Assembly: GCF_039645965.1 (NCBI RefSeq)
Contig: NZ_CP147917.1
Span: forward strand, 806,001-870,000
Direction of reading: 5' to 3'
Length of the DNA stretch: 64,000 nucleotides
Origin: Sulfurimonas sp. HSL3-2
Lineage (GTDB): Bacteria; Campylobacterota; Campylobacteria; Campylobacterales; Sulfurimonadaceae
Under the pieces are notes generated by a model. That model was not told the origin of the DNA and ran no database searches. It saw nothing but the letters and a program-made list of their open reading frames with translations. The position numbers and the translations under genes were made by a program. Position 1 is the first letter of the stretch, and every line of letters starts with the position of its first letter. Below are positions 47,255-63,105 of this stretch, in pieces.

Positions 47255-48928
47255 ATGAAACTTCACTCTTACGACATCAATAAAAAATTCAGTACAAGTG
47301 TAGCTTATTTCTCAATGGAATTTGCAATCGATCAAGCTCTTAAAATATATTCAGGCGGTTTGGGATTTCTATCCGGTTCTCATATGAGAAGTGCGTATGA
47401 TCTGAAACAAAATATCGTCGGAGTCGGCATTTTATGGAGTTTTGGTTATTATGATCAGGTCCGAAATGAAGATCGTACATTAAAACCGCAATATACGAGA
47501 AAATTTTACTACTTTTTAGAAGATCTCAATGTAAAAGTCAGTGTAAAAGTCCAGAACAAAGATGTGGTCGTAAAGGCTTTTTTACTGCATCCTGATGTTT
47601 TTGGTACCGCTCCTATCATCCTGCTATCAACCGACACGGATGAAAATGATTATCTTTCCCGTACGATCACGCATAAACTCTATGAAGAAAATGAAAGAAC
47701 CCGTGTTGCGCAGGAGATTGTCTTGGGTGTGGGTGGAGTAAGAGTCTTAGAAGCTATTAACAGAAGTGTCGATATCTATCATATGAACGAGGGACATTCG
47801 CTGCCGCTAGTATATGAACTATACAACCGCTATAAAGATATACAAGTCCTAAGAGAACAGATCGTGTTTACTACACATACTCCAGAAGCTGCGGGAAACG
47901 AAGTCCATAATTTACATTTTTTAGATGAGATGGGCTTTTTCAGCGGATTGGATCTAGATACTGTCCGTTCTATAAGCGGCCATCAAAAAGACGATAATTT
48001 TAGTTTGACCGTCGGTGCACTAAGAGCATCAAAAAGAGCCAATGCTGTTTCTAAGATCCATCAAAGAGTCTCTAACGAGATGTGGTCAAATGTTGAAGAT
48101 AAATGTGAGATCATCTCAATTACGAATGCTCAAAATAAAAAGTACTGGGCAGATAAGACACTTTTACGTGCACTTGATGAGCATGAAGATTATGAGCTGG
48201 TCGCAAGAAAAAAACACTTGAAGAAACTACTTTTTGACGAAGTGGCAGATCAGACAGGAAAGATGTTCGATCCTGAGATATTGACCATTGTCTGGGCAAG
48301 AAGATTCGCCGAATATAAGAGACCGGGACTTCTAAAGCATGATCTTAACAGATTTATAAAGTTCATTGAAAATACAGAGATGCCTGTTCAGATCATTTGG
48401 GCAGGAAAACCATATCCTACAGACCACGGTGCAATAGATATCTTTAATGAACTGATATATATCGGACACAGACATCCAAATATTGCCGTGTTGATCGATT
48501 ATGAACTCTCATTATCCAGACTCTTAAAACAGGGAAGCGATATCTGGCTCAACACTCCTAGAATCACGAGAGAAGCATGCGGGACAAGTGGGATGTCCGC
48601 TAGTATGAACGGTTCTATCCACTTTTCTATAAATGATGGATGGCACCCTGAATTTGCAAGAGACCGCAGAAATGCTTTTACAATACCTGAAGTCGATCAT
48701 AATCTAAGCGTGACAGAACAGGATACGACAGACAACAAAAACTTGATGGATATTTTAGAAGAGGTTGTCGTTCCGATCTATTATAATAAACCTAAAAAAT
48801 GGATCAAGATTATGAAAAATGCTATGACGGAGATAGATATAGAATTTGATTCTACAAGATTGGCAAGAGATTACTATGAGTTGTTGTATGATTATAAATA
48901 TTCCAGCGATATAGAGGAACCAAAATAA
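47255..48928 (+). CDS. GT35 alpha-glucan phosphorylase-like protein lacking the PLP lysine
   Basis: This 557-residue GT35-fold protein is a shortened relative of alpha-glucan phosphorylases (usually 800 residues or more). Most family motifs are present: FSMEFAIDQALKIYSGGLGFL near the start (quoted here minus its first residues), HMNEGHSLPLVYE, TTHTPEAAGNE, ARRFAEYKRPG and AGKPYPTD. In the block EACGTSGMSASMNG the lysine that binds pyridoxal phosphate (GTSGMK in relatives) is Ser448 (codon TCC at 48596). Phosphorolysis as known would need that lysine, so this protein may use another donor or be regulatory. It is the first gene of the cluster and overlaps pfkA by 1 bp. Confidence 0.85.
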   Translation: MKLHSYDINKKFSTSVAYFSMEFAIDQALKIYSGGLGFLSGSHMRSAYDLKQNIVGVGILWSFGYYDQVRNEDRTLKPQYTRKFYYFLEDLNVKVSVKVQNKDVVVKAFLLHPDVFGTAPIILLSTDTDENDYLSRTITHKLYEENERTRVAQEIVLGVGGVRVLEAINRSVDIYHMNEGHSLPLVYELYNRYKDIQVLREQIVFTTHTPEAAGNEVHNLHFLDEMGFFSGLDLDTVRSISGHQKDDNFSLTVGALRASKRANAVSKIHQRVSNEMWSNVEDKCEIISITNAQNKKYWADKTLLRALDEHEDYELVARKKHLKKLLFDEVADQTGKMFDPEILTIVWARRFAEYKRPGLLKHDLNRFIKFIENTEMPVQIIWAGKPYPTDHGAIDIFNELIYIGHRHPNIAVLIDYELSLSRLLKQGSDIWLNTPRITREACGTSGMSASMNGSIHFSINDGWHPEFARDRRNAFTIPEVDHNLSVTEQDTTDNKNLMDILEEVVVPIYYNKPKKWIKIMKNAMTEIDIEFDSTRLARDYYELLYDYKYSSDIEEPK

Positions 48929-49887
48929 TGGCATTTGCAATAATATGTTCAGGCGGCGATGCGCCCGGTATGAATCCGGCTATTAAAAAATTTGTTGATT
49001 ATACGTATAAAAAAGGTGAGGATGCATATCTTATCTATGATGGATTAGACGGACTTATCGATAATAAAATCAAAAAAGCGACACATAAAGATGTCGCGGG
49101 AATAGTCCACTTTGGCGGGACTATTATCCGCTCATCACGCTCGAAAAGATTTTTTGAATATGAATATAGAAAACAGGCGTATGAGAATCTAAAAGCATTA
49201 GGGATAAAGGGTCTTGTCGTGTTAGGCGGAGACGGGACATTTAGAGCGATGCAGAAGCTCAGTTCAGAGTTTGATATCAACTTCGTAGGTGTCCCTTCAA
49301 CCATCGATAACGATATATACGGGACAGAGTACTGCTTGGGTGTAGATACTGCTTTAAACGTGATACGCGATGCACTTGATAAGATCAGAGATACCGCATC
49401 ATCTTTTAACAGAGCATTCTTAGTAGAGGTGATGGGTAGAGATTGCGGGTATCTTGCAATTGCTTCAGCGATAGTAAGCGGAGCGGAGATCTGTGTTATT
49501 CCCGAGATCGAATTTAAAAAAGAGGCACTGCAAAACAGGTTGATTCAAGAGATAAAAGATGGCAGAAACTATATCTTGGCAATAATCTCAGAAGGAGCAA
49601 AACAAACATCTGAAGTCCATAGCTGGATCCAAGAAACATTTAACTTAGAGACCAGAGTGAGTATATTGGGACATATTCAAAGAGGAGGCAATCCGAGCGT
49701 ACATGACAGGATGATGGCATTTGATTTTACAATTCGTGCAATAGATTATCTCTTAGAACACAGTGATTCAAATAAAGTAGTCGTATATAACAGCGGAAAG
49801 TTCGATTTTATGGAAATTGAGGAAGTCGTTTCAAACAAATACCAGCTTCCTGAACATCTTTTAAATTCAATTAATTATCTCGATTAA
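48928..49887 (+). CDS. pfkA: 6-phosphofructokinase
   Basis: PfkA phosphorylates fructose 6-phosphate in glycolysis and would let stored glucan feed lower glycolysis. The nucleotide loop GGDGT (100-104) has Gly, not the Asp of pyrophosphate enzymes, which favours ATP use. The catalytic motif STIDND (124-129) contains Asp127, with Ser124 where ATP enzymes usually have Gly and PPi enzymes Lys. MGRDCGYLA and RVSILGHIQRGG are intact. Length 319. Many Campylobacterota lack this enzyme. It overlaps the GT35 gene by 1 bp. Confidence 0.93.
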   Translation: MAFAIICSGGDAPGMNPAIKKFVDYTYKKGEDAYLIYDGLDGLIDNKIKKATHKDVAGIVHFGGTIIRSSRSKRFFEYEYRKQAYENLKALGIKGLVVLGGDGTFRAMQKLSSEFDINFVGVPSTIDNDIYGTEYCLGVDTALNVIRDALDKIRDTASSFNRAFLVEVMGRDCGYLAIASAIVSGAEICVIPEIEFKKEALQNRLIQEIKDGRNYILAIISEGAKQTSEVHSWIQETFNLETRVSILGHIQRGGNPSVHDRMMAFDFTIRAIDYLLEHSDSNKVVVYNSGKFDFMEIEEVVSNKYQLPEHLLNSINYLD

Positions 49888-49900
49888 AGGAGCACTCTAT

Positions 49901-52405
49901 ATGAAAGCAGTAGTAATGGCAGGTGGATTCGGTACAAGAATCCAACCACTGACACACTCTATTCCCAAACCTATGTTACCTATCATGAACAAACCTATGA
50001 TGGAACATACGATGATGATGCTAAAGGATCTGGGTATAAAAGAGTTTATTGTGCTTTTGTATTTTAAGCCGGATATTATTAAAGAGTATTTTAAAGACGG
50101 CAGTGACCTCGGTATAAAGATCACATATGTAGTCCCGGAGGATGATTACGGGACTGCCGGTGCAGTTAAGCTTGCACAAGAGTATATCGGTGATGAGAAC
50201 TTTATTGTCATAAGCGGAGATCTTGTGACAGATTTTGATTTTCAAAAACTGTTTGATTTTCATGCAGCTAAAAAATCAAAACTCTCCATCGGACTTACTT
50301 CTGTAGAAAACCCTTTGCAATTCGGTGTGGTCATTGCTAATGAAGATAATGTGATCGAGAAATTTTTGGAAAAACCGAGCTGGGGTGAAGTATTCAGCGA
50401 TACTATAAATACGGGTATATATGTTATAGAACCGGAGATTTTAAATTATATCCCTGAAAATGAAAATTTCGATTTTGCAAAAGACCTTTTTCCCTCTTTA
50501 ATGCAAAAAGAGATAGATTTAATGGGCTACAACCTTAGCGGGTATTGGCGAGACGTAGGAAATCCTGAAAGCTATAGAGAAGTGTATGAAGATATATTGA
50601 ACTGTCGAATAAAATTTGATATATCCGGGTATAAAAAAGAGTATCCTGACGGTACGTTATATACAGCATCCAGGTATGATCTAGATCCGACGGTAGAGAT
50701 CATAGGTACAGTTGTTTTAGGTGATAATGTTACTCTAAAAAAAGGTGTGAAACTCAGTAATGTCGTCATAGGCGATAATGTCACGATCGGAGCATTGAGC
50801 AAGGTCAGAAACTGTGTGTTTTGGAATAATATAGAGATCGATAAACATGCAAAACTTGATAACTGTATTATCTGTAACAACAATATAATCGGTAAAAACG
50901 TTACAGTGAAAGCAGGATTGATCCTGGCTGAAGGTTGTGAGGTCGGTGAGTTGACATCCATTGAACAGGATGTCATCATCTGGCCCGATAAAAAGATAGA
51001 ACCTGCATCCATTGTCAGTCATAACATCATCTTGGGAAGCAGATATAAAAACTCGATCTTTGAAAATGGAACCGTATTTGGGACGAGTAATGTCGAACTT
51101 TCATGTGAAATGGTGACAAAACTGGCTGAAGCTTTTGCTGCACAGCTTCCAATCGGTTCAAAAGTGGTAGTGGGAAGAGATGATGACAGAAGTTCCCGTA
51201 TGCTCAAACGTGCTTTTCTAGGCGGATTATTATCTGCGGGTATAAACGTACAGGATATTAAAAGTGCTCCGCAGTCTGTTTTAAGATTTACATTGGCAAA
51301 TGATAATGATCTGGTCGCCGGAGCTCACTTTAAGCGGTCTATTATCGATACCAGAAACTCAGAGATAACGTTTTTCAATGATGAAGCTATACGTTTAGAT
51401 TCTAACGCGGCAAAAGCTATTGAAAAACTGTTTTTTACTGAAAAATTTCGCAGAGTCGAGTATTCAAAAATTGGAAAGATATATGAAACGCATTATAAAA
51501 CTGAGTGTACAAGTTATAAATATGCGATAGAAAGAACTTTAGACCACTCAAGTATCAAATACAGTAATTTTCGTGTTGCAGTCGATCTTATGCACGGTAG
51601 TACTGCGGAGATGTTTCCCGGAATACTCAATGACCTCGGTATAGAAAATATCGTATTAAACGCTTATTATGATGAACAAAAACTTTCAAATATGCGGGCA
51701 CTGCGAAAACGTTCAGAAGAAGATATATCAAAGATCGTTAAAAGTCTGGACTATGATATGGGTGTCATGATCTATCCAAATGTACAAAGGATCACATTAA
51801 TAGCTGATAACGGAGAGGTCTTAAATAAGATAAATGCACTTTACAGCGTGTTATATCTGTTAAATATGGATCTCAAAGAGAATAAGAAAAAAACAGTCTT
51901 CTTACCTAGCTGGGCGCCGGATATCATCTATTTTGAGAATCTTATAATCGAGCGCGGAAAATATTCCGACTTTAAAGCTGAACAGCTTAAAAAATATGAT
52001 CTTATTGCAACGGTCGACGGTAACTTTAGCTTTAAAGAGTTCAGCTATACCAGAGATGCCATGTATGCAAGTTTAAAGATAATGGAGTTACTAAGCTATA
52101 ATAATATTAAACTATCAGCGGTGTCAAAAATGATAGATGATTTTTATTATAAAACTTTTAAAGTAGATTGTCCGCAATCTCTAAAAGGGAAGATGATGAG
52201 AATGTTCCTGGAAGATGCAAAAGGTAAAAAGTCATCATTGGTAGACGGTGTGAAAATCTGGGAAAATGATACCAACTGGATATTGATGATACCTGATCAG
52301 TATAGTGAATATTTGAACATCTATATTCAAGCGATAGATGAAAAAGCCGGAAACGCACTCTACGAAAGATACAGTGCAAAAATGACCGAATGGTCTGCTA
52401 AATAA
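49901..52405 (+). CDS. Sugar-1-phosphate nucleotidyltransferase fused to an inactive phosphohexomutase-like domain
   Basis: This 834-residue fusion has an intact N-terminal nucleotidyltransferase (AGGFGTRIQPLT near residue 6, PKPMLP, GTAGAVKLAQ, SGDLVTDF and YWRDVGNPESY). A left-handed beta-helix of hexapeptide repeats follows (about 250-375), then a phosphohexomutase-like domain (about 380-830). In the latter the catalytic TASHNP is A473-G-A-H-F-K478, and the metal loop DGDxDR is Y625-P-N-V-Q-R630, so mutase activity is very unlikely. Relatives are annotated as GDP-mannose pyrophosphorylases. With no glgC nearby it is a candidate NDP-glucose source for the glycogen synthases. Confidence 0.88.
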   Translation: MKAVVMAGGFGTRIQPLTHSIPKPMLPIMNKPMMEHTMMMLKDLGIKEFIVLLYFKPDIIKEYFKDGSDLGIKITYVVPEDDYGTAGAVKLAQEYIGDENFIVISGDLVTDFDFQKLFDFHAAKKSKLSIGLTSVENPLQFGVVIANEDNVIEKFLEKPSWGEVFSDTINTGIYVIEPEILNYIPENENFDFAKDLFPSLMQKEIDLMGYNLSGYWRDVGNPESYREVYEDILNCRIKFDISGYKKEYPDGTLYTASRYDLDPTVEIIGTVVLGDNVTLKKGVKLSNVVIGDNVTIGALSKVRNCVFWNNIEIDKHAKLDNCIICNNNIIGKNVTVKAGLILAEGCEVGELTSIEQDVIIWPDKKIEPASIVSHNIILGSRYKNSIFENGTVFGTSNVELSCEMVTKLAEAFAAQLPIGSKVVVGRDDDRSSRMLKRAFLGGLLSAGINVQDIKSAPQSVLRFTLANDNDLVAGAHFKRSIIDTRNSEITFFNDEAIRLDSNAAKAIEKLFFTEKFRRVEYSKIGKIYETHYKTECTSYKYAIERTLDHSSIKYSNFRVAVDLMHGSTAEMFPGILNDLGIENIVLNAYYDEQKLSNMRALRKRSEEDISKIVKSLDYDMGVMIYPNVQRITLIADNGEVLNKINALYSVLYLLNMDLKENKKKTVFLPSWAPDIIYFENLIIERGKYSDFKAEQLKKYDLIATVDGNFSFKEFSYTRDAMYASLKIMELLSYNNIKLSAVSKMIDDFYYKTFKVDCPQSLKGKMMRMFLEDAKGKKSSLVDGVKIWENDTNWILMIPDQYSEYLNIYIQAIDEKAGNALYERYSAKMTEWSAK

Positions 52406-52415
52406 GGACAGTACA

Positions 52416-54437
52416 TTGAAACTTAGCTTTATGTGGCATATGCATCAGCCAGATTACCGTGACAGCAGCGGTGTCATGCAGATGCCTTGGGTCTTTTTAC
52501 ATGCTATAAAAGATTATTATGACATGCCGTGGATGCTGGCTCAGCATGATGGGCTCAAAGCTACATTTAACATTACTCCGCCATTGATGCAGCAGTTAAA
52601 ACTTTATTATCAACATCCTCAAGAACATGATAAGTTTTTAGCATTGTGGTCAGAAAATCCGTCATATCTAGATGAAGAAGATAGAAACTGGGTCATTAAG
52701 ATCTGTAAAAGTTCAAATTACGAGACGATGGTAGTTCTGTTTCCGAGATACAAAGAACTTTATATTCAAGAGCATTTCAATAACAATGAACTTATAGAAC
52801 TAGAGGTACTATTTATCCTTTCTTGGTGCGGTGTCTATCTTCAAGAAAACAGTAGCGTCGTTATAGATCTGATCAAAAAGCAAAGAGATTATAGTGCTGA
52901 AGATAAGTTTTTACTTCTAGACGAATTATCCAAATTTATATCAGGGATCTTTGATTATTACTTGAAGTTAAGGAACGAGGGTGTCATTATGATATCTACG
53001 ACACCTCTAAACCATCCGATCCTGCCTTTGCTTATGGATATGGAAAATGCGCGTATTGCAAACCCTTCTACAAATATGCCAAAAGAGTATATAAAGTTAG
53101 AAGATGATGCACTGATGCAGGTAGAAAGAGCAAAAGAACTTTTTCATGAGACTTTCGGCTTTATCCCTGAGTGTTTTTGGCCGGCAGAGGGAGCTGTCGA
53201 TGAAAAAAGTGTCGAGCTTTTAAAATCATGCGGAGTCAAGTGGATAGCTACGGATGAGGAGATACTGTTTAAATCATTAAACTCAAACAACAGAGCCGAT
53301 ATCTATTTTCCATATTCATATAACGATGTCTGTATCGGTTTTCGTGATCATAACTTAAGTGATCTGATCGGTTTTACATATAGGCATGCAGACTCGTATG
53401 AAGCGTCATCAAGCTTTATAAAAGAGCTGGATAAGATACACAACAGCAACCCGGAAGCCACGGTATTTGTTATCTTAGACGGTGAAAATGCTTGGGAGTT
53501 CTTTAAGAAAAATGGTTTTAACTTTTTTAACTCTCTTTATGAAAAGCTGAAAAGTCTCTCTTGGTGTCAGACTGTCACTATGGCTGAAAGCTGTAAGACT
53601 CCGGCAAGAAAATTAGCACGTTTAGCACCCGGAAGCTGGATACACGGTGAGTTTAATACCTGGGTAGGACATAGAGAAAAGACAAGGGCGTGGGAGCTTA
53701 TCTATCTTACAAAAAGAGATTATGAACACCATAAAGACTCTCTTGATCAGGAGACTAATGAAAAGATCATAGAACACTTTTTGATCGCTGAGTGTTCTGA
53801 TTGGTTCTGGTGGTACGGAGATGACCATTTTAGCGAGTTTGGAGCAGAGTTCGATGAACTTTTCCGTTCACACCTGATAAATATTTATAACCTGATAAAT
53901 ATCACGCCTCCATCAGATCTTTTTATCCCTATTATTAAAAATAAAAGTACAAAAAGTTTTTGGCTTAAACCGCAATCGGATATATCTCCCGAGATCAACG
54001 GAAAACATGATTCATTTTTTGAATGGATAGGATGCGGTGTCGTAGATGAAAGTAAACTCTTTTCGACGATGGACAAACAAAGAGGTCCGATAAAAAAAAT
54101 ACTTTACGGACAAGATGATGAGAAGCTTTATTTTGCATTTGAAGCACGGATAAAAGAACTGTGCGGCAGTGATTCGATAGAGATTATTATCGATCCTATC
54201 AATGTGCGGGGCAAAGTGGGATTTCAAACGCAAAAAGTCTTTCTAGGTGACTTGGAAGTCAACGTAGCATGTAAAGACCAGCTCGAGATCAGTATAGATA
54301 AGAGTAAAATGGGCAAAGATGAGATCCATGTCAGATTTGAACTGGAAAAAGACGGTAACGTTGTTCAGACATTACCCGGGTTTGGCGAACTTAAGATAGA
54401 TCTTGGCAATGACTATAGCCATAACTGGTTTGTTTAG
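52416..54437 (+). CDS. GH57 family alpha-amylase/amylopullulanase-like glycoside hydrolase
   Basis: This 673-residue protein opens with the GH57 motif MWHMHQPDYRD and carries the catalytic pair: Glu258 in FWPAEGAVDE (nucleophile) and Asp355 in ILDGENAWEFF (acid/base). The C-terminal part (about 490-670) is a beta-rich domain resembling glucodextranase/DOMON-like modules. No signal peptide is seen, so it acts in the cytoplasm on stored glucan. The start is TTG with AAGGAC upstream, and MKLSFMWHMHQP aligns with relatives from that residue. The next GH57 gene follows by 8 bp. Confidence 0.9.
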   Translation: MKLSFMWHMHQPDYRDSSGVMQMPWVFLHAIKDYYDMPWMLAQHDGLKATFNITPPLMQQLKLYYQHPQEHDKFLALWSENPSYLDEEDRNWVIKICKSSNYETMVVLFPRYKELYIQEHFNNNELIELEVLFILSWCGVYLQENSSVVIDLIKKQRDYSAEDKFLLLDELSKFISGIFDYYLKLRNEGVIMISTTPLNHPILPLLMDMENARIANPSTNMPKEYIKLEDDALMQVERAKELFHETFGFIPECFWPAEGAVDEKSVELLKSCGVKWIATDEEILFKSLNSNNRADIYFPYSYNDVCIGFRDHNLSDLIGFTYRHADSYEASSSFIKELDKIHNSNPEATVFVILDGENAWEFFKKNGFNFFNSLYEKLKSLSWCQTVTMAESCKTPARKLARLAPGSWIHGEFNTWVGHREKTRAWELIYLTKRDYEHHKDSLDQETNEKIIEHFLIAECSDWFWWYGDDHFSEFGAEFDELFRSHLINIYNLINITPPSDLFIPIIKNKSTKSFWLKPQSDISPEINGKHDSFFEWIGCGVVDESKLFSTMDKQRGPIKKILYGQDDEKLYFAFEARIKELCGSDSIEIIIDPINVRGKVGFQTQKVFLGDLEVNVACKDQLEISIDKSKMGKDEIHVRFELEKDGNVVQTLPGFGELKIDLGNDYSHNWFV

Positions 54438-54445
54438 GAATTAAG

Positions 54446-56476
54446 ATGAAGAAAGTTTCACTGCTATTTGGTATCCATATGCATCAGCCGGTCGATAATT
54501 TTGGTGACTCTGTAGAGAATGCGATAAAACTTTGTTATAAGCCGTTTTTTGAGACGATGGTGAAGTTTCCTGAGTTTAAATTTGCTCTGCATTGCAGCGG
54601 GTGGCTGCTTGAAGAGATCAGAACCAAACACATGGATATATTTGAGAATATGCAGTATTTGACAAAAAAAGGCTCCATAGAGTGGCTGAGTGCAGGATAC
54701 TATGAACCTGTTTTAAGTTCTATCCCCTCACAAGACCGTATATCGCAGATAGAGAAGTTAAACAGATATATAAAAAAATATTTTAAAGTAAGCCCAAAAG
54801 GACTTTGGCTCACGGAGAGAGTGTGGGAGTCCGCGTTAGTCCCGGATCTTGCAGAGTGCGGAATCAAGTATGTCGTAGTGGATGACTATCATTTTTTAAG
54901 CAGCGGATTTGATACCTCTTCACTTGACGGTTATTATACGACGGAAGAGAGTGCAAAAGAGGTCAATCTTTTCCCGATATCAAAGTCTCTTAGATATGCT
55001 CTGCCTTTTTTTAGCGTTCAAAGTGCGATCGATTTTATTTTATCATCTGCTGTGAGTGAGAATTCTGCTGCGGTCGTATTTGATGATGCCGAAAAGTTCG
55101 GTCTGTGGCCAAAGACACATGAATGGGTTTATAAAAAACATTGGCTGCAACAGTTTGTAGAAGCTGTTTTAGCAGATGAAAATATCGTCACACAGCATTA
55201 CGGGACATATATGAAAGAAAATCGTCCTCTCGGCATAGCTTACTTAAACAATACCTCCTATTTTGAGATGGGAGAATGGAGTCTTAAGAGTAAACAAGCA
55301 TTGGCATTAGAGGAGTTAAAACAGAGTGTCGGTGAACATTACTTCAATGATATCGGAGTCTCTTTTATAAAAGGCGGGATATGGAAAAACTTTTTTATAA
55401 AATACAGAGAAAGTAATTACCTGCATAAAAGGATGCTCTACTTTAGCAAGAACCAAGATACATTGCCGAAAAAAGCATTGGAGTCTCTATACAAACTTCA
55501 GACAAACGATGTGTTCTGGCACGGAATATTCGGCGGTATATACCTTCCAAATCTTCGTGATAACGCGTACAGATATCTTTTAGAACTTGAAGCTTCAAGA
55601 GAGAAGAAAGATATCTTTATTGAAGTATCGGATATCGATAAAGATGGATATGATGAGTTTAAAGTCGTAACAAAAAACCTTAGTGCAGTTTTTTCGACAA
55701 AATTTGGCGGACAGATGATGGAATTCGGTTCGTTTGATACTTTTTTTAACTGGCAGAACACTATGATGCGTAGAAAAGAGAGTTATCATGAAAAGTTGTT
55801 CCACCATACTGATCTAAATAATACAGATAAGCATCAAGACGGTATCAGTACAATCCACAATGATGATCTGGAAATAGATGAATCATTAAAAGATGAACTG
55901 ATATATGACTGGCATCCGAAATATTCGTTTATCGATCATTTCTGCCGTGATGAATTAACACTTGAGAGTTTTAAAGGTCTTACGTTTAAAGATGTTGCAG
56001 ATTTTGCAAACCAGCCTTTTACTTTGAATAAAAACAAAAATAGTTTCAGCAGAACAGGCGGGATATATCTGGACTGGTGTTATGAGACAAAACTGAAAAA
56101 AGAGTATGGGTTTAAGACAAATTCGATCAGTTTGGATGTCAAATGTAACAGTGAGTATGAAGAAAGACTTTTTTATGCGCAGGAGTATAATTTCCATTTT
56201 GCTCATCCAAATAGAGTCACATTTAACGGTAAAACTTTACATAATGGTTTTACTCAGTATAATTGCGATGAACTTGTCATTGTCGATGATTTTACAAAGA
56301 AAGTGTTAACATTAAAGATGAATCAAAAATGCAATATTTTCGGATATATCTTAAATACTATCTCAAAAAGTGAGACAGGTTTTGATAAGATGGCTCAGGA
56401 GATATCATTTATATTGACGCTGCCTTTTTATTCAAAGTTCAAATTCAAAGTCGATCTGGAGTTATCTGATGTCTGA
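54446..56476 (+). CDS. GH57 family 4-alpha-glucanotransferase
   Basis: This 676-residue protein matches the Thermococcus litoralis type of 4-alpha-glucanotransferase. It begins LLFGIHMHQPVDNFGD, the nucleophile is Glu124 (LTERVWES), and the acid/base is Asp214 in VVFDDAEKFGLWP, at nearly the same numbers as in T. litoralis. The C-terminal DUF1925/DUF1926-type beta domains (about 380-670) are present. It would reshuffle short maltodextrins from glycogen breakdown. It overlaps the galT-like gene by 8 bp. Confidence 0.92.
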   Translation: MKKVSLLFGIHMHQPVDNFGDSVENAIKLCYKPFFETMVKFPEFKFALHCSGWLLEEIRTKHMDIFENMQYLTKKGSIEWLSAGYYEPVLSSIPSQDRISQIEKLNRYIKKYFKVSPKGLWLTERVWESALVPDLAECGIKYVVVDDYHFLSSGFDTSSLDGYYTTEESAKEVNLFPISKSLRYALPFFSVQSAIDFILSSAVSENSAAVVFDDAEKFGLWPKTHEWVYKKHWLQQFVEAVLADENIVTQHYGTYMKENRPLGIAYLNNTSYFEMGEWSLKSKQALALEELKQSVGEHYFNDIGVSFIKGGIWKNFFIKYRESNYLHKRMLYFSKNQDTLPKKALESLYKLQTNDVFWHGIFGGIYLPNLRDNAYRYLLELEASREKKDIFIEVSDIDKDGYDEFKVVTKNLSAVFSTKFGGQMMEFGSFDTFFNWQNTMMRRKESYHEKLFHHTDLNNTDKHQDGISTIHNDDLEIDESLKDELIYDWHPKYSFIDHFCRDELTLESFKGLTFKDVADFANQPFTLNKNKNSFSRTGGIYLDWCYETKLKKEYGFKTNSISLDVKCNSEYEERLFYAQEYNFHFAHPNRVTFNGKTLHNGFTQYNCDELVIVDDFTKKVLTLKMNQKCNIFGYILNTISKSETGFDKMAQEISFILTLPFYSKFKFKVDLELSDV

Positions 56477-57482
56477 AATAAGATTAGATAGAATTCATAA
56501 TAAATATGTATTGATAGCTCCAGAGCGGCTTTATCGACCAAACTTACGCCATACGGACAGTAAAAAAAGTTCAAGTGCGATATGTCCGTTTTGTGAGGGC
56601 AATGAAGATCTGACACCCTCTGAGGTCTTTGCTATCAGAGACAATGAACCCAATATGCCATCTTGGAAGACAAGAGTAGTCCCAAATCTTTATAAAGCCG
56701 TTCAGATAGAGTTAGAAGATGTCTCTAAAAGAGACGGGATGTTTGAATCGATCCCGGGAGTAGGAGCGCATGAGATACTTATAGATACACCTTGCCATGA
56801 TTGCGATATCGTTCAGCTTGAAGCTATTGATGTTGAAAACTGGCTGAGAAGCATGATAATCCGGATAGAAGACCTTAGAAATGACAAAAGACTGATACAC
56901 CTGAGCATATTTAAAAATTTCGGTCTAAATGCCGGTGCGACACAGGACCATCCGCATACTCAGATACTGGCTCTTCCGATCATGCCAAAAAGTGAACTCG
57001 TGTTCTTAGACCGTAATATGACATATTATCGCCGTCACGGACGCGGAATACTTGAAGATATCATCCATAACGAGATGATCGCCAAAAAAAGGATAGTCAG
57101 TAAGATAGGTAATTTTATAGCATTCTGTCCGTTTGCAAGTGCATACCCTTTTGAAGTGATGATAGCTCCAATAGTCAATATATCCGGATTAAGCAGATGC
57201 AGTAGAAAAGAGATAACCGATCTGGCAGTACTCATTAAAATCGTATTTGAAAAGTTAAATATCCAGCTTGGCAGATTTGACTATAATCTTTCATTCGATA
57301 TGGCACCTTTAAACAAAAACTTTGAAAACGAACCGTATGTAAGCAGTTTTGACAAGAACTACCGCTTTAGTCTTCGCATTACACCGAGGATCTATACGTT
57401 GGGCGGATTTGAGATATCTACAGGCATGGCGATCAACAGTGTAGTCCCGGAAGACTGTGCCAAGCTTTTGCGGGGAGATTGA
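56469..57482 (+). CDS. galT: GalT-type hexose-1-phosphate uridylyltransferase
   Basis: This 337-residue GalT-family enzyme has the zinc CPFCEGNE motif near residue 39 and the nucleophilic HPH motif (DHPHTQILALP; His161 and His163). GalT moves UMP between UDP-glucose and galactose 1-phosphate. Relatives act on ADP-glucose or other NDP-sugars, and the glycogen context makes a role in glucose 1-phosphate/NDP-glucose exchange possible. No galE or galK lies nearby. It overlaps the GH57 gene by 8 bp, and the first glgA follows after 4 bp. Confidence 0.88.
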   Translation: MSEIRLDRIHNKYVLIAPERLYRPNLRHTDSKKSSSAICPFCEGNEDLTPSEVFAIRDNEPNMPSWKTRVVPNLYKAVQIELEDVSKRDGMFESIPGVGAHEILIDTPCHDCDIVQLEAIDVENWLRSMIIRIEDLRNDKRLIHLSIFKNFGLNAGATQDHPHTQILALPIMPKSELVFLDRNMTYYRRHGRGILEDIIHNEMIAKKRIVSKIGNFIAFCPFASAYPFEVMIAPIVNISGLSRCSRKEITDLAVLIKIVFEKLNIQLGRFDYNLSFDMAPLNKNFENEPYVSSFDKNYRFSLRITPRIYTLGGFEISTGMAINSVVPEDCAKLLRGD

Positions 57483-57486
57483 TCTG

Positions 57487-58878
57487 ATGAAAGTCCTTTT
57501 TGCTTCTAGTGAAATATTCCCATATGCCAAAAGCGGAGGATTGGCCGATGTTGCTGATGCTCTTCCAAATATCTTAAAAGACTCTGTCGATATTGCCAGA
57601 GTCATGCCTTTATACGGTTTTATGGATAAAGATGGGCTAGAGTATGAAAGATCATATAAGATAAGTTTCGGAGGAATCGATTATAAGATCAATCTTTATG
57701 CAAAAGAGAGTGATACGTTAAAGACCTGTTTTATAGAAGCTCCTCTGCTTAGTGCTACACAGAGTCTTTATTGCGATAAAGAGGGAGATTACCCGAACAA
57801 TGATCTGCGTTTTGGGATATTTTGTATGGCTGTTGTAGAGCTTTCATCGGTATTGAAGATAGATATCCTGCATCTCAACGATTGGCATACGGCTTTGTGT
57901 GCACTTTTGATAAAAGAACGCGGATTAAAGATAAAAACGGTCTTCACGATCCATAATCTAGCCTATCAGGGTATCTTTGGCAAAAACTCGCTTGAAAGAC
58001 TCGGCATCGATAAAAAATATTTTACTATGGAAAGTCTGGAGTTTTACGACAAGGTGAACTTTTTAAAAGCCGGCATAGCTTACAGCGACCGAATAACAAC
58101 AGTGAGTCCAACCTATGCAAAAGAGATATTGACTAAGGAATTTGGATGCGGATTGGAAGGTTTTTTATCATATCACAAAGATAAGTTAAGCGGTATCTTA
58201 AACGGCATCAATGACAAGATCTTTAATCCTGCAGATGATAAAGCATTAGCTTTTGAGTATGATAAAAACACGCTTGAAAACAAGTATAAGAATAAGGTCG
58301 AATTTATAAAAACTGCAACGTTAAAGGACCCGAGACGTCCTCTTATCGTAATGATAGCAAGGCTTGTCGAGCAAAAAGGGATCGATCTGCTGATGGATTC
58401 ATTAAAGCTTTTACTGGCTAAGAAAATAAATTTTTATATACTTGGAGAGGGGAGTGCAGAGTTTTCCAAAAAACTGGCACTGTTTGCAAAAGAGTACGAT
58501 AACTTTGAGTTTTTTGAAGGCTACGATGAAAAGCTTTCTCATCAGGTCTATGCGGCTGCAGACTTTCTACTCATGCCTTCTAAGTTCGAGCCATGTGGGT
58601 TAAATCAGATGATAGCGATGCGTTACGGGACTATTCCGATAGTCCATGCCATAGGTGGTTTAAAAGACAGTGTTCATGAAGATGATATGAAATGCGGCGG
58701 TGGTATAGTCTTTAAAAAATATACTAAAAAAGAGTTTCTCTTAGCTATTGACAGAGCCTTAAAACTAAAAAAAGAGAATGAAAAGTTTCAGGCGACAATG
58801 GAGTTTAATATGGGATGCGACTTCTCATTTACGCCAAGTGCTTTAGAATATCTAAAACTCTATAAGAGTCTGGTATGA
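57487..58878 (+). CDS. glgA: Glycogen synthase (GT5), first copy
   Basis: This GT5-family glycogen synthase extends alpha-1,4-glucan from NDP-glucose. The donor-binding motif KSGGLADVADALPN lies at about 17-30. HLNDWHTALCALL, IARLVEQKGIDLL and FEPCGLNQMIAMRYG are intact. I chose ATG 57487, with GGGGAG upstream, instead of an earlier in-frame ATG inside galT, giving 463 residues. It differs widely from the second GlgA, so the two are not a recent duplication. It overlaps the glucokinase gene by 4 bp. Confidence 0.93.
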   Translation: MKVLFASSEIFPYAKSGGLADVADALPNILKDSVDIARVMPLYGFMDKDGLEYERSYKISFGGIDYKINLYAKESDTLKTCFIEAPLLSATQSLYCDKEGDYPNNDLRFGIFCMAVVELSSVLKIDILHLNDWHTALCALLIKERGLKIKTVFTIHNLAYQGIFGKNSLERLGIDKKYFTMESLEFYDKVNFLKAGIAYSDRITTVSPTYAKEILTKEFGCGLEGFLSYHKDKLSGILNGINDKIFNPADDKALAFEYDKNTLENKYKNKVEFIKTATLKDPRRPLIVMIARLVEQKGIDLLMDSLKLLLAKKINFYILGEGSAEFSKKLALFAKEYDNFEFFEGYDEKLSHQVYAAADFLLMPSKFEPCGLNQMIAMRYGTIPIVHAIGGLKDSVHEDDMKCGGGIVFKKYTKKEFLLAIDRALKLKKENEKFQATMEFNMGCDFSFTPSALEYLKLYKSLV

Positions 58879-59714
58879 ATCTAGCCATTGATGCGGGCGG
58901 GACTAATTACCGTGCAGAGATATTAGATAATGATCAGTCGGTACAAACACTCTGTGTAAAGAGTGCCGATATCGGTCTGTCTAACTGGATCGAGACGATC
59001 TTAAATGAGTATCACGGCATAAAAACTGTCTATATCGCTTATGCGGGACAGGTAAAAGAGGGAGTGATCATCTCTGCTCCGAACCAAAATGTAGATAATC
59101 ATGACATAAAAAACTACTTTGAAGATAAGTTCGGTGTGGAATTGTTTATAGAAAATGACCTTAATTGTGCAGTACTGGCAGAAGCAGAGCATTTTAATTG
59201 TGAAAATATCTGTGCTTTATATGTGGGGACGGGATTAGGTCTCGGGGTCGTCAGTTCATCAAAGTTGATCTGCGGTCATAACGGCGTTACCACAGAGATA
59301 GGACATATCCCATATAAAGATGCACCGTTTCGATGCGGATGCGGTAAAAGCAACTGTTTGGAGCTTTTTGCATCAGGCTCCGGGGTTATGAAGTTTAAGG
59401 AGTATAATTCAATCGACAGTTCCAAAAGACTTACCGAGTTACAAGAGAGTAAAAACGCAGTTGAAAAAAAGCTTTACGATGAGTTTGAGACAGCTTTAGT
59501 ACATGCAGTAGGAACGGTCATAACTCTGTTTACTCCCGAGATACTTGTCCTTGGCGGGGGAATCATATCCGCAGATGAAGAACTTATACAGAGAATCACT
59601 TCAAGAGTGAAGGATTTTGCTATGCCTATAACTCTTCAGGGTGTTAAGATAGTACAAACACAGATGCAAAATGCGCCCTTAAGAGGTGCATTATTACTAA
59701 AGGATTGTAGATGA
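58875..59714 (+). CDS. ROK family glucokinase
   Basis: This 279-residue sugar kinase phosphorylates glucose, here probably the glucose freed by amylase or glucanotransferase action. The ATP-binding motif is AIDAGGTNYRAEIL (about 4-17), the catalytic Asp is in FIENDLNCAVLAEAE, and the ROK zinc motif is CGCGKSNCLELFASG. There is no HTH domain, so it is an enzyme rather than a ROK repressor. It overlaps both glgA genes by 4 bp, which places glucose phosphorylation in the same coupled unit. Confidence 0.9.
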   Translation: MNLAIDAGGTNYRAEILDNDQSVQTLCVKSADIGLSNWIETILNEYHGIKTVYIAYAGQVKEGVIISAPNQNVDNHDIKNYFEDKFGVELFIENDLNCAVLAEAEHFNCENICALYVGTGLGLGVVSSSKLICGHNGVTTEIGHIPYKDAPFRCGCGKSNCLELFASGSGVMKFKEYNSIDSSKRLTELQESKNAVEKKLYDEFETALVHAVGTVITLFTPEILVLGGGIISADEELIQRITSRVKDFAMPITLQGVKIVQTQMQNAPLRGALLLKDCR

Positions 59715-61192
59715 GTCAAGAGAAGTTAAAGGTTCTGTTTGCAGCTTCAGAAGTAGTCGGATTTGCAAAGACAGGCGGGCTTGCAGACGTGGCGGGTGCT
59801 CTTCCGAAGGCGATAAAAAAACTTGGTCACGACATCATAGTCGTCATGCCGAGGTACTATCAGATAGACAAAAGCCAGCTCACTAAACTTGAAGCTCCTT
59901 TGGGTGTACCTATGGGCGCAATGGGAGAGCTTTGGGCAGGAGTTTATACGACTACTTTAGCTCAAAGTGAAGTGCCGGTATATTTTATAGATTATGAGAG
60001 ATATTTTGGAAGAAGTGGACTTTATGATGACCATGAAGGTTCATTTGAAGACAATGCGAACCGTTTTATATTTTTCTCAAAAGCGGCTTTACAGCTTTGT
60101 AAGATGCTGCATTTTACGCCTGATATCATTCATGCAAATGATTGGCATACCGCAGCGATCCCTCTCTTGATGAAGACAAGATTCGTCCATGATTTTGCTT
60201 TTGCGAAGTCTGTACTTACTATTCATAACTTGCAGCACCAAGGCAATTTCCATAAAAACATCATGGATGTAATGGAGGTCGGCTGGGATCATTACAACTC
60301 TCATGAGTTTGAAAGTATGAACAGCGTAAATCTTTTAAAAGGCGGTATTATGCATGCAGATGCCGTTACGACGGTCTCAAAAAAATATGCGCAGGAGATC
60401 CAAACACCGGAGTTCGGGTTTGGACTGCAAGACCACATAGGAGCACATAGTGATAAGCTTTTTGGAATCCTTAACGGGGTGGATTACGATGAATGGAACC
60501 CTTCTGTAGATAATCTGATCGCTAAAAAATACGACATCGATGATATGTCAGGAAAACTGGAGTGTAAGAGAGATATTCAAAGACATTTCAATCTTGAAGT
60601 GCGGGAGAATGTACCTCTTATAGGTTTTGTCGGACGTTTTGTGGAGCAAAAGGGGATCGGGCTGATAGCAACCGTTATAAACGGTCTTTTAGATATGGAT
60701 GTTCAGATCGTGATGCTTGGAGCGGGAGAGAAGTGGGCAGACGGCTTTTTTGGAAATGTTGCCTATCACCGTCCGAATTTCGGCTTACATGTAGGATACA
60801 GCGACGGACTGGCACACAAGATAGAAGCAGGGTGCGATATGTTTTTGATGCCTTCACTCTTCGAGCCGTGCGGGTTGAACCAGATATACAGTCTTCGTTA
60901 CGGGACGCTGCCGATCGTGCGTGCGACGGGCGGACTTGACGATACGATAGTAAACTTTGACGAACATCATCAGCACGGAAACGGATTTAAGTTTTACGAT
61001 GCGGCTCCCGAGGCACTTTACTATACGGTGTTGTGGGCAGTTGAAATATACTACAAAGATAAAGCAGCATTTAAAGATATGCAGGAGCGCGCGATGAAAG
61101 AACATTTTAGCTGGGATGATTCGGCAAAGAGTTATGAAGCCGTTTACCAATACATCCTAAACAGACACAATACACCAAAGCCGATACTATGA
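59711..61192 (+). CDS. glgA: Glycogen synthase (GT5), second copy
   Basis: This second GT5 synthase has 493 residues. The KTGGLADVAGALPK donor motif, HANDWHTAAIPLL, VGRFVEQKGIGLI and FEPCGLNQIYSLRYG are all intact. It has an N terminus and middle region unlike the first copy, which suggests different roles such as priming versus elongation, or use of different NDP-glucose donors. The stop overlaps the glgB start by 4 bp. Confidence 0.94.
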   Translation: MSQEKLKVLFAASEVVGFAKTGGLADVAGALPKAIKKLGHDIIVVMPRYYQIDKSQLTKLEAPLGVPMGAMGELWAGVYTTTLAQSEVPVYFIDYERYFGRSGLYDDHEGSFEDNANRFIFFSKAALQLCKMLHFTPDIIHANDWHTAAIPLLMKTRFVHDFAFAKSVLTIHNLQHQGNFHKNIMDVMEVGWDHYNSHEFESMNSVNLLKGGIMHADAVTTVSKKYAQEIQTPEFGFGLQDHIGAHSDKLFGILNGVDYDEWNPSVDNLIAKKYDIDDMSGKLECKRDIQRHFNLEVRENVPLIGFVGRFVEQKGIGLIATVINGLLDMDVQIVMLGAGEKWADGFFGNVAYHRPNFGLHVGYSDGLAHKIEAGCDMFLMPSLFEPCGLNQIYSLRYGTLPIVRATGGLDDTIVNFDEHHQHGNGFKFYDAAPEALYYTVLWAVEIYYKDKAAFKDMQERAMKEHFSWDDSAKSYEAVYQYILNRHNTPKPIL

Positions 61193-63105
61193 AGCATGAG
61201 ATCTTTTATGACGTAACACTTTTTACGGAGTTTGATATCTACCTGTTCAAAGAGGGTACACATGTAAAACTTTATAATCATTTTGGTTCCCATTTTATGC
61301 AAAGAGATGGTGTGAAAGGTGTCTACTTCGCAGTCTGGGCTCCAAACGCAAACGGCGTTAGTGTTATCGGAGATTTTAACTATTATGATGCACTCTCTCA
61401 TCCATTGAAACTGCGAGAAGACGGTTCTGGTATATGGGAAGGGTTTATAACAGATATAGAACAGGGACTGACGTATAAATATCATATATCATCACATACG
61501 GGCAGTACTCAAAAAGCCGATCCATACGCTTTTTATGCAGAAGTAGCTCCTAGTTCGGCATCGCGTATCTGGAGTTTGGACGGTTATAAGTGGGATGATA
61601 AACAGTGGATGAGATCACGCCATAAAAATAACTCTCACACCGCAGCGATCTCGATCTATGAGATGCATCTTGGTTCGTGGAAGAGAAAAGTGGAGGAAAA
61701 CAACCGCTTTTTGACATACATAGAAGCTGCGAATGAACTGGCGGTCTATCTAAAAGAGATGAACTTTACGCATGTAGAATTACTTCCGATCACGGAGTAT
61801 CCATTTGAAGGTTCATGGGGATATCAGGTTACGGGATATTTTGCGCCGACATCACGTTACGGTACGCCTGATGAGTTTATGGCCTTTGTGGATATCATGC
61901 ACAATAACGGTATTGGAGTGATCCTGGACTGGGTTCCGTCGCATTTTGTGACCGACGGGCATGGTCTTATGAACTTTGACGGGACCTGCCTTTACGAACA
62001 TGAAGACCCGAGAAAAGGGTTCCATCCCGAGTGGGGCAGTGCTATTTTTAACTATGACAGAAACGAAGTACGCGCTTTTTTAATCAGTTCAGCAATGTTT
62101 TGGCTTGAGTTTTATCATCTTGACGGTATCAGAGTCGATGCCGTTGCATCTATGCTGTATCTTGATTATGCAAGAAAAGAGGGTGAATGGGTGCCAAACG
62201 AGGATGGCAGTAATATAAACCGTGGTGCCGTCACTTTCTTAAAACAGCTCAATACTACTACTTACGGTGCATTTAATGACATCATGATGTTTGCCGAAGA
62301 GTCTACAAACTACTCGATGGTAAGCAGACCCGTAGATGTCGGCGGACTTGGATTCGGATATAAATGGAACATGGGCTGGATGCACGATATCTTGAAATAT
62401 ATGAAGATAGATCCGCTTTTTAGACAGCATCACCATCATCATCTGACATTTAGTTTTGTTTACATGTACAACGAAAACTATCTTCTTCCTTTGAGCCATG
62501 ATGAGGTCGTTCATATGAAGGGTTCGCTCATTAATAAAATGCCCGGAAGCAACGATAAAAAGTTTGCAAACCTTAGAGCGCTTTATGCGTTGATGTTCGC
62601 TCATCCCGGTAAAAAACTGCTCTTTATGGGTGCAGAGTTTGCACAGTTTGCAGAATGGAATTTCCAGCAGAGTCTTGACTGGCATCTACTAGAGTATAAA
62701 GAGCACAGAGGCATAAATAATATTTTAAAGACACTTAACAGACTTTATATAGATCTGCCGGCACTGCATAAAAACGATGTGCAAAGCAGCGGTTTTGAGT
62801 GGATAGACGAAAATGATTATACGGCAAATGTGATCTCCTTTGTTCGTAAGGGCGGCAGGGGTGTCAAGTCTCTTCTTATTATCTGTAATTTTTCAGACAA
62901 AGAGCACACAAGCTACAGGATCGGAGTTCCGAATAAGGGCGAATATATAGAGGTCTTTAACTCTGATGATGAGTCTTTTGGCGGTGAGGGAAGAGTAAAC
63001 GCTAAATCTATGACATCAGAGACAAAGATATGCCATGGAAGGAAAAATAGCCTTCAGGTGACACTTCCGCCTCTGAGCGTCGTCTATCTGCAAAAGGCAA
63101 AATAG
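61189..63105 (+). CDS. glgB: 1,4-alpha-glucan branching enzyme (GH13)
   Basis: GlgB introduces alpha-1,6 branches into glycogen. An N-terminal CBM48-type domain (about 25-125) with YFAVWAPNANGVSVIGDFN is followed by the GH13 barrel with nucleophile Asp317 (DGIRVDAVASMLY), acid Glu370 (FAEESTNYS) and the LSHDEVVH motif. The C-terminal beta domain is present. Length 638. A run of five histidines (414-418) sits where relatives have a shorter His stretch before LTF. It is the last gene of the cluster and ends 2 bp from the convergent ATPase gene. Confidence 0.96.
   Translation: MKHEIFYDVTLFTEFDIYLFKEGTHVKLYNHFGSHFMQRDGVKGVYFAVWAPNANGVSVIGDFNYYDALSHPLKLREDGSGIWEGFITDIEQGLTYKYHISSHTGSTQKADPYAFYAEVAPSSASRIWSLDGYKWDDKQWMRSRHKNNSHTAAISIYEMHLGSWKRKVEENNRFLTYIEAANELAVYLKEMNFTHVELLPITEYPFEGSWGYQVTGYFAPTSRYGTPDEFMAFVDIMHNNGIGVILDWVPSHFVTDGHGLMNFDGTCLYEHEDPRKGFHPEWGSAIFNYDRNEVRAFLISSAMFWLEFYHLDGIRVDAVASMLYLDYARKEGEWVPNEDGSNINRGAVTFLKQLNTTTYGAFNDIMMFAEESTNYSMVSRPVDVGGLGFGYKWNMGWMHDILKYMKIDPLFRQHHHHHLTFSFVYMYNENYLLPLSHDEVVHMKGSLINKMPGSNDKKFANLRALYALMFAHPGKKLLFMGAEFAQFAEWNFQQSLDWHLLEYKEHRGINNILKTLNRLYIDLPALHKNDVQSSGFEWIDENDYTANVISFVRKGGRGVKSLLIICNFSDKEHTSYRIGVPNKGEYIEVFNSDDESFGGEGRVNAKSMTSETKICHGRKNSLQVTLPPLSVVYLQKAK

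Follow-up and report, generated by a model that had tools for sequence, protein, structure and literature searches.

A multi-phylum clade of GT35-fold proteins with serine or threonine at the position of the PLP lysine

According to reviews, all members of GT35 are phosphorylases, and the family stands out among phosphorylases as the only one that needs PLP [PMC4336185]. The phosphate of PLP acts as the acid/base catalyst in these enzymes [PMC11046441, PMC4336185]; therefore, loss of the cofactor should cripple phosphorolysis unless the site has been rebuilt. The window analysed here, a stretch of 64,000 nucleotides from Sulfurimonas sp. HSL3-2, encodes a GT35-like protein with a serine where the PLP lysine is expected (Table 1). 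This raises the question of whether such a protein can still act on alpha-glucan and, if so, by which mechanism. A sequence-only reading of the locus had described it as a folded, selected GT35 relative that cannot work by the known phosphorolytic mechanism.

Serine at the PLP-lysine position

Positions 48593-48600 read ATG TCC GC and encode Met447, Ser448 and the start of Ala449 in the open reading frame at 47255-48928 (+ strand). In HMMER alignments against PDB sequences, Ser448 stands opposite the lysine of EASGTSGEKAEMNG in the Segatella copri glycogen phosphorylase (9l6i) and opposite the lysine of EASGTGNMKFAMNG in 9wvu. Codon reading and alignment thus bear out the earlier claim that Ser448 replaces the PLP lysine in the GT35 block, and the change from AAA or AAG to TCC does take three base substitutions. 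The neighbouring motifs are conserved as had been stated, among them ARRFAEYKR (residues 348-356), and the motif EACGTSGMSASMNG occurs once in the window compared with zero times in shuffles. A sequencing error had been called unlikely, in agreement with the Ser or Thr found in every relative that covers the site. Considered together, sequencing error, pseudogene and chance have practically no likelihood as the origin of Ser448, given conservation over the whole length in more than 100 loci and a dN/dS of ~0.04-0.09 relative to same-genus orthologues, a value that is approximate only, dS being near saturation.

The window protein scores 446.6 bits against TIGR02094 (cut-off 191.7) and 46.7 bits against PF00343 (cut-off 27), which is its sole Pfam match; the Pfam scan found no GT4 domains. 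Against TIGR02093, with a cut-off of 552.9 bits, proteins of the Ser/Thr type reach 43-66 bits and those of the Lys type 75-109. The AlphaFold2 model has a mean pLDDT of 92.1 and its best structural match is the S. copri glycogen phosphorylase (TM 0.90 to 9l6i/20yr); among the 50 Foldseek matches listed, only GT35 proteins appear. Model quality, fold and the conservation of the substitution across phyla uphold the description of a folded, selected GT35 relative. Since the family cut-offs are exceeded and the fold is that of GT35 but the cofactor lysine is missing, we refer to a GT35-fold clade and not to members of the PLP phosphorylases.

Table 1. Features of the glycogen locus in the window
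Feature	Coordinates	Strand	Basis
GT35-like protein, 557 aa, Ser/Thr-type (no PLP lysine)	47255..48928	+	TIGR02094, PF00343, AF2
ARRFAEYKR, residues 348-356, putative RxxxxK phosphate-binding motif R350/K355	48296..48322	+	alignment, hhalign
E417, S421, K425, co-varying with PLP-lysine loss	48503..48529	+	Ser/Thr-type vs Lys-type alignment
Conserved block EACGTSGMSASMNG, residues 440-453	48572..48613	+	glucose-contact residues E/A/S/G by analogy with potato Pho1 (PMC11465516)
Codon TCC, Ser448 at PLP-lysine position	48596..48598	+	ORF translation, HMMER alignment, orthologues
6-phosphofructokinase	48928..49887	+	PF00365, PRK03202
NTP-transferase fused to degenerate PGM/PMM domain, best GlgC-like gene	49901..52405	+	
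GH57 protein (TTG start)	52416..54437	+	PF03065
GH57 amylase/4-alpha-glucanotransferase-type	54446..56476	+	PF03065, PF09094, PF09095
GalT-like nucleotidylyltransferase	56469..57482	+	PF01087, PF02744
Glycogen synthase GlgA, copy 1	57457..58878	+	TIGR02095 495.6 bits
ROK-family sugar kinase	58875..59714	+	PF00480
Glycogen synthase GlgA, copy 2	59711..61192	+	TIGR02095 547.1 bits
Glycogen branching enzyme GlgB	61189..63105	+	TIGR01515 857.9 bits

A Ser/Thr clade spread over several phyla

When 60 related genomes were searched for the protein, orthologues were found in 30 genomes, the window's own included, and site 448 is Ser or Thr, never Lys, in every orthologue covering it. Moreover, a degenerate DNA pattern, in which Lys was barred at the site by design, was scanned over 84,980 species genomes and matched at least 119 loci. 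All of these encode a short protein with GTSGM[ST]A, mostly 545-600 aa in length, and they belong to Campylobacterota, Bacteroidota, Verrucomicrobiota, Candidatus Gastranaerophilales/Melainabacteria, Halopseudomonas, one Desulfurellales contig, and others. The pattern is blind to any member whose residue at the site is Lys, Ala, Gly or Asn; hence, the statement that the residue is always Ser or Thr rests on the homology searches, in which the short proteins have Ser/Thr and the long TIGR02094 proteins always Lys.

In a tree of 55 sequences, the Ser/Thr and Lys forms part on one branch with a support of 100/100. Eight changes at site 448 map on this tree, one between Lys and a hydroxyl residue and at least seven between Thr and Ser. 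Repeated Thr/Ser exchange combined with a single Lys/hydroxyl change shows that the hydroxyl is maintained at this site. The taxonomic labels of some MAGs, such as Beijerinckiaceae or Sphingomonadales, may be wrong, as the tree places locus L106 within Bacteroidota.

The conservation of a non-Lys residue across phyla makes the standard Schiff-base PLP mechanism unlikely, and to this extent the claim that the protein cannot work by the known phosphorolytic mechanism stands. Read as a ban on phosphorolysis it is too strong, however, as PLP-free GT-B phosphorylases exist and the distribution of the two forms over genomes suggests that the clade has replaced the classical phosphorylase.

Pocket residues kept and changed

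For comparison of the two forms, 132 sequences of the Ser/Thr type and 30 of the Lys type, including some near-duplicates, were aligned. GGLG at 34-37, H208, N291, R350, Y354, K355, Y416, E440, G443 and T444 are conserved in both forms; for R350, K355, H208, N291 and E440 the conservation is at least 95% in both clades. The glucose contacts of potato Pho1 are Asn561 and the stretch Glu754-Ala-Ser-Gly757, which precedes the PLP lysine Lys762 by eight to five residues [PMC11465516]. These contacts correspond to N291 and E440-A441-C442-G443 of the window protein.

Other positions change jointly in the Ser/Thr clade: Lys to S/T448, Val to K425, Ala to S421 and Asp to E417, together with Phe to W347, Tyr to W61 and Pro to K30. 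E417, S421 and K425 are invariant in the Ser/Thr-type alignment, while the Lys-type enzymes mostly have D, A and V at these positions (Val in 97% at position 425). Several of the changed positions are likely pocket residues because Ala653 and Arg649 of rabbit GP, the equivalents of 421 and 417, line the PLP site. Many of the diagnostic swaps (S421, K425, W347 and E417) enlarge the side chain, as if filling the space that the cofactor would have vacated.

The glycogen operon

All operon genes listed in Table 1 are located downstream of the Ser/Thr-type gene on the same strand, and much of this layout recurs across Campylobacterota, where the NTP-transferase is a neighbour of the Ser/Thr-type gene. 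Among the neighbourhoods examined outside Campylobacterota, mostly no shared glycogen context was found, apart from the Desulfurellales contig, in which a ROK kinase also adjoins the Ser/Thr-type gene. No GlgC over the curated cut-off was detected in the 61 genomes searched, though many have both GlgA and GlgB; the NTP-transferase/PMM fusion is the best candidate for the enzyme that makes NDP-glucose. In 12 of the 12 orthologues compared, its PGM/PMM half has neither the catalytic Ser/His loop nor the Mg-binding DGDGDR loop any longer, and is thus a further degenerate enzyme domain of this operon. The two GlgA genes are differing paralogues split by the ROK kinase, an arrangement that recurs in many relatives. 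The GalT-like protein is present in the glycogen operons of several Campylobacterota and could use ADP-glucose or glucose 1-phosphate, not galactose.

Two further neighbours of the Ser/Thr-type gene were observed elsewhere. An unannotated, lipoprotein-like open reading frame of ~326 aa adjoins it in L055 and 15 other loci, mostly Bacteroidota, and on a Runella rosea plasmid (L230 11947-14082) it is followed by a gene of the pyridoxamine 5′-phosphate oxidase family.

Probable replacement of the Lys-type enzymes

No other PF00343 gene was found in the window's own genome, and a Lys-type GT35 is absent in 25 of the 30 Campylobacterota-relative genomes with the Ser/Thr form. The other five keep both forms, which implies non-identical roles there. 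Across phyla, 22 genomes with the Ser/Thr form gave TIGR02093 over the cut-off in 0/22 and a Lys-type TIGR02094 protein in 1/22. Likewise, in a Gastranaerophilales/Cyanobacteria sample with ~21 genomes that have the short form, a Lys-type TIGR02094 protein is present in none and a TIGR02093-like protein in two. The Ser/Thr form was found in 11 and another GT35 in 73 of 99 Bacteroidota genomes, and both together in 0 (p=6e-8, relatedness ignored). The presence of the Ser/Thr form goes with that of GlgA: 28 genomes have both, five only GlgA, two only the Ser/Thr form, and 26 neither (p=4.6e-10, relatedness ignored). The exclusion pattern fits what a functional substitute for the classical phosphorylase would look like.

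Two observations concern individual relatives. In G053, one of the five relatives with both forms, a Ser/Thr-type and a Lys-type GT35 gene share a strand at a distance of ~2.8 kb (L154 5426-7063 and 9902-11680). Bacteroidota with the Ser/Thr form often have an open frame of ~270-300 aa whose match to GlgA is confined to the N-terminal half of the synthase (G060, G061, G077, G078, G080 and G081).

How might the Ser/Thr clade work?

Collectively, we are confident that the clade is real and conserved, does not use Schiff-base PLP, and is active on alpha-glucan; it probably works by a different, B6-free mechanism. Our preferred reading, which we put forward tentatively, is that of a PLP-free reversible alpha-glucan phosphorylase that binds phosphate directly. 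PLP-free retaining GT-B phosphorylases are known, as exemplified by GT4 trehalose phosphorylase with its RxxxxK motif [PMC12018205, PMC8950772], of which residues Arg507 and Lys512 have been studied [PMC12018205]. In such a scenario, a large GT35-fold clade would have lost covalent PLP once, Ser/Thr being conserved where the lysine had been, and would act on alpha-1,4-glucan in glycogen metabolism in place of the classical glycogen phosphorylase. Phosphate, or else the phosphate group of glucose 1-phosphate, would be held directly by R350 and K355 (RxxxxK), as in GT4 trehalose phosphorylase, and K425 and the hydroxyl of Ser/Thr448 might assist. H208, N291 and E440 would bind the glucosyl unit, the transfer of which would be front-face (retaining).

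As a close rival, we consider it possible, if doubtful, that the protein is instead an NDP-glucose-dependent glucosyltransferase. The vacated pocket would then take the nucleotide of ADP-, GDP- or UDP-glucose, R350 and K355 would hold the distal phosphate, and the glucan would be extended as by glycogen synthase. Such an enzyme would be akin to the NDP-sugar user proposed as the ancestor of GT35, or represent a reversion to it; the proto-GT35 enzyme is proposed to have gained PLP as a stand-in for a nucleoside monophosphate [PMC11046441]. The NTP-transferase neighbour in the Campylobacterota operons is consistent with this possibility, as are 3/22 tested genomes in which GlgB is present without a GlgA or GT3 synthase over the cut-off. 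Experiments with pyridoxal-diphosphate-glucose on rabbit GP reportedly indicate that the nucleotide and PLP sites overlap. Moreover, five of six Ser/Thr-type proteins score 36-45 bits against the GlgA profile TIGR02095 over much of their length, compared with 0-21 for the Lys type, which does better on TIGR02093. On shared columns, however, the difference falls to 23 vs 14 bits, and the profile-profile scores against GlgA are equal (69.9 for the Ser/Thr type, 67.6 for the Lys type), which makes the signal of GlgA-likeness weak. As a proof of NDP-sugar use, this resemblance was rejected: it mostly vanishes without inserts and in the profile-profile comparison. Furthermore, two GlgA are already encoded in the Campylobacterota operon, and a third synthase would not predict the exclusion of Lys-type phosphorylases. 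It is because of this exclusion, and because many replacements in the pocket are larger, that direct binding of phosphate is favoured over NDP-glucose.

Could the protein still be a PLP enzyme, with PLP bound non-covalently or via another lysine? The alignment has no substitute lysine at or adjoining 448, but Lys425 is a candidate: it is invariant in the clade at a position where the Lys type nearly always has Val, and it follows by one helical turn the equivalent of rabbit Ala653, a PLP neighbour. The ligands of the PLP phosphate are kept as well. A Schiff base would, however, have to come from a different helix, and the Ser/Thr hydroxyl at 448 is strictly selected, so that we regard retention of PLP as unlikely. 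It is slightly less likely still that the protein is a catalytically dead glucan-binding or regulatory protein: although the catalytic cofactor site is lost and an operon neighbour has a visibly degenerate PMM domain, the residues of the glucosyl and phosphate sites are invariant over several phyla, which would be needless for binding alone, and the protein is usually the sole GT35 of its genome.

Significance

In the literature searched, the coverage of which was partial, no paper on a Lys-less GT35 or on the Ser/Thr clade was found. The one annotated member inspected, that of the Runella rosea plasmid, carries the annotation glgP, "alpha-glucan family phosphorylase". A monophyletic clade spanning several phyla has dropped the lysine that holds PLP and altered positions around it; either the GT35 fold would do phosphorolysis without PLP, or the fold would have switched donor. 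Both outcomes bear on the origin of the PLP mechanism, and a large number of genome annotations and metabolic models would have to be revised. Should the less favoured use of NDP-glucose be true, a glycogen-phosphorylase architecture would act as a glycogen synthase in a living PLP-free branch of GT35. This branch would allow a direct test of the proposal that an ancestral GT-B transferase took up PLP in its nucleotide site.

Comparison with known systems

The closest system is the Lys-type branch of TIGR02094, represented by the S. copri glycogen phosphorylase (9l6i). It is the sister clade and shares the fold, the glucose and phosphate residues, and the RRFxxYKR and EAxGTSG blocks, but it has Lys448, Val425 and usually Ala421 in proteins of ~680-920 aa, where the clade of the window protein has Ser/Thr448, Lys425 and Ser421 in shorter proteins. 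Classical GT35 enzymes (TIGR02093; rabbit GP and E. coli MalP) have the same fold and active-site layout; they carry PLP on Lys680/Lys646, whereas the Ser/Thr clade stays far below the cut-off of that profile. GlgA (GT5) likewise has the GT-B fold, and equivalents of the R/K, H, N and E residues align by hhalign, but the window protein scores only 44.8 bits against TIGR02095 compared with a cut-off of 328.45. The GT4 trehalose phosphorylase of Schizophyllum commune, our working model, is a retaining GT-B enzyme in which RxxxxK handles phosphate [PMC12018205]. It belongs to a separate family and its substrate is trehalose, and the window protein has no GT4 Pfam match; RxxxxK is found in the window protein, but the motif is common to GT-B families.
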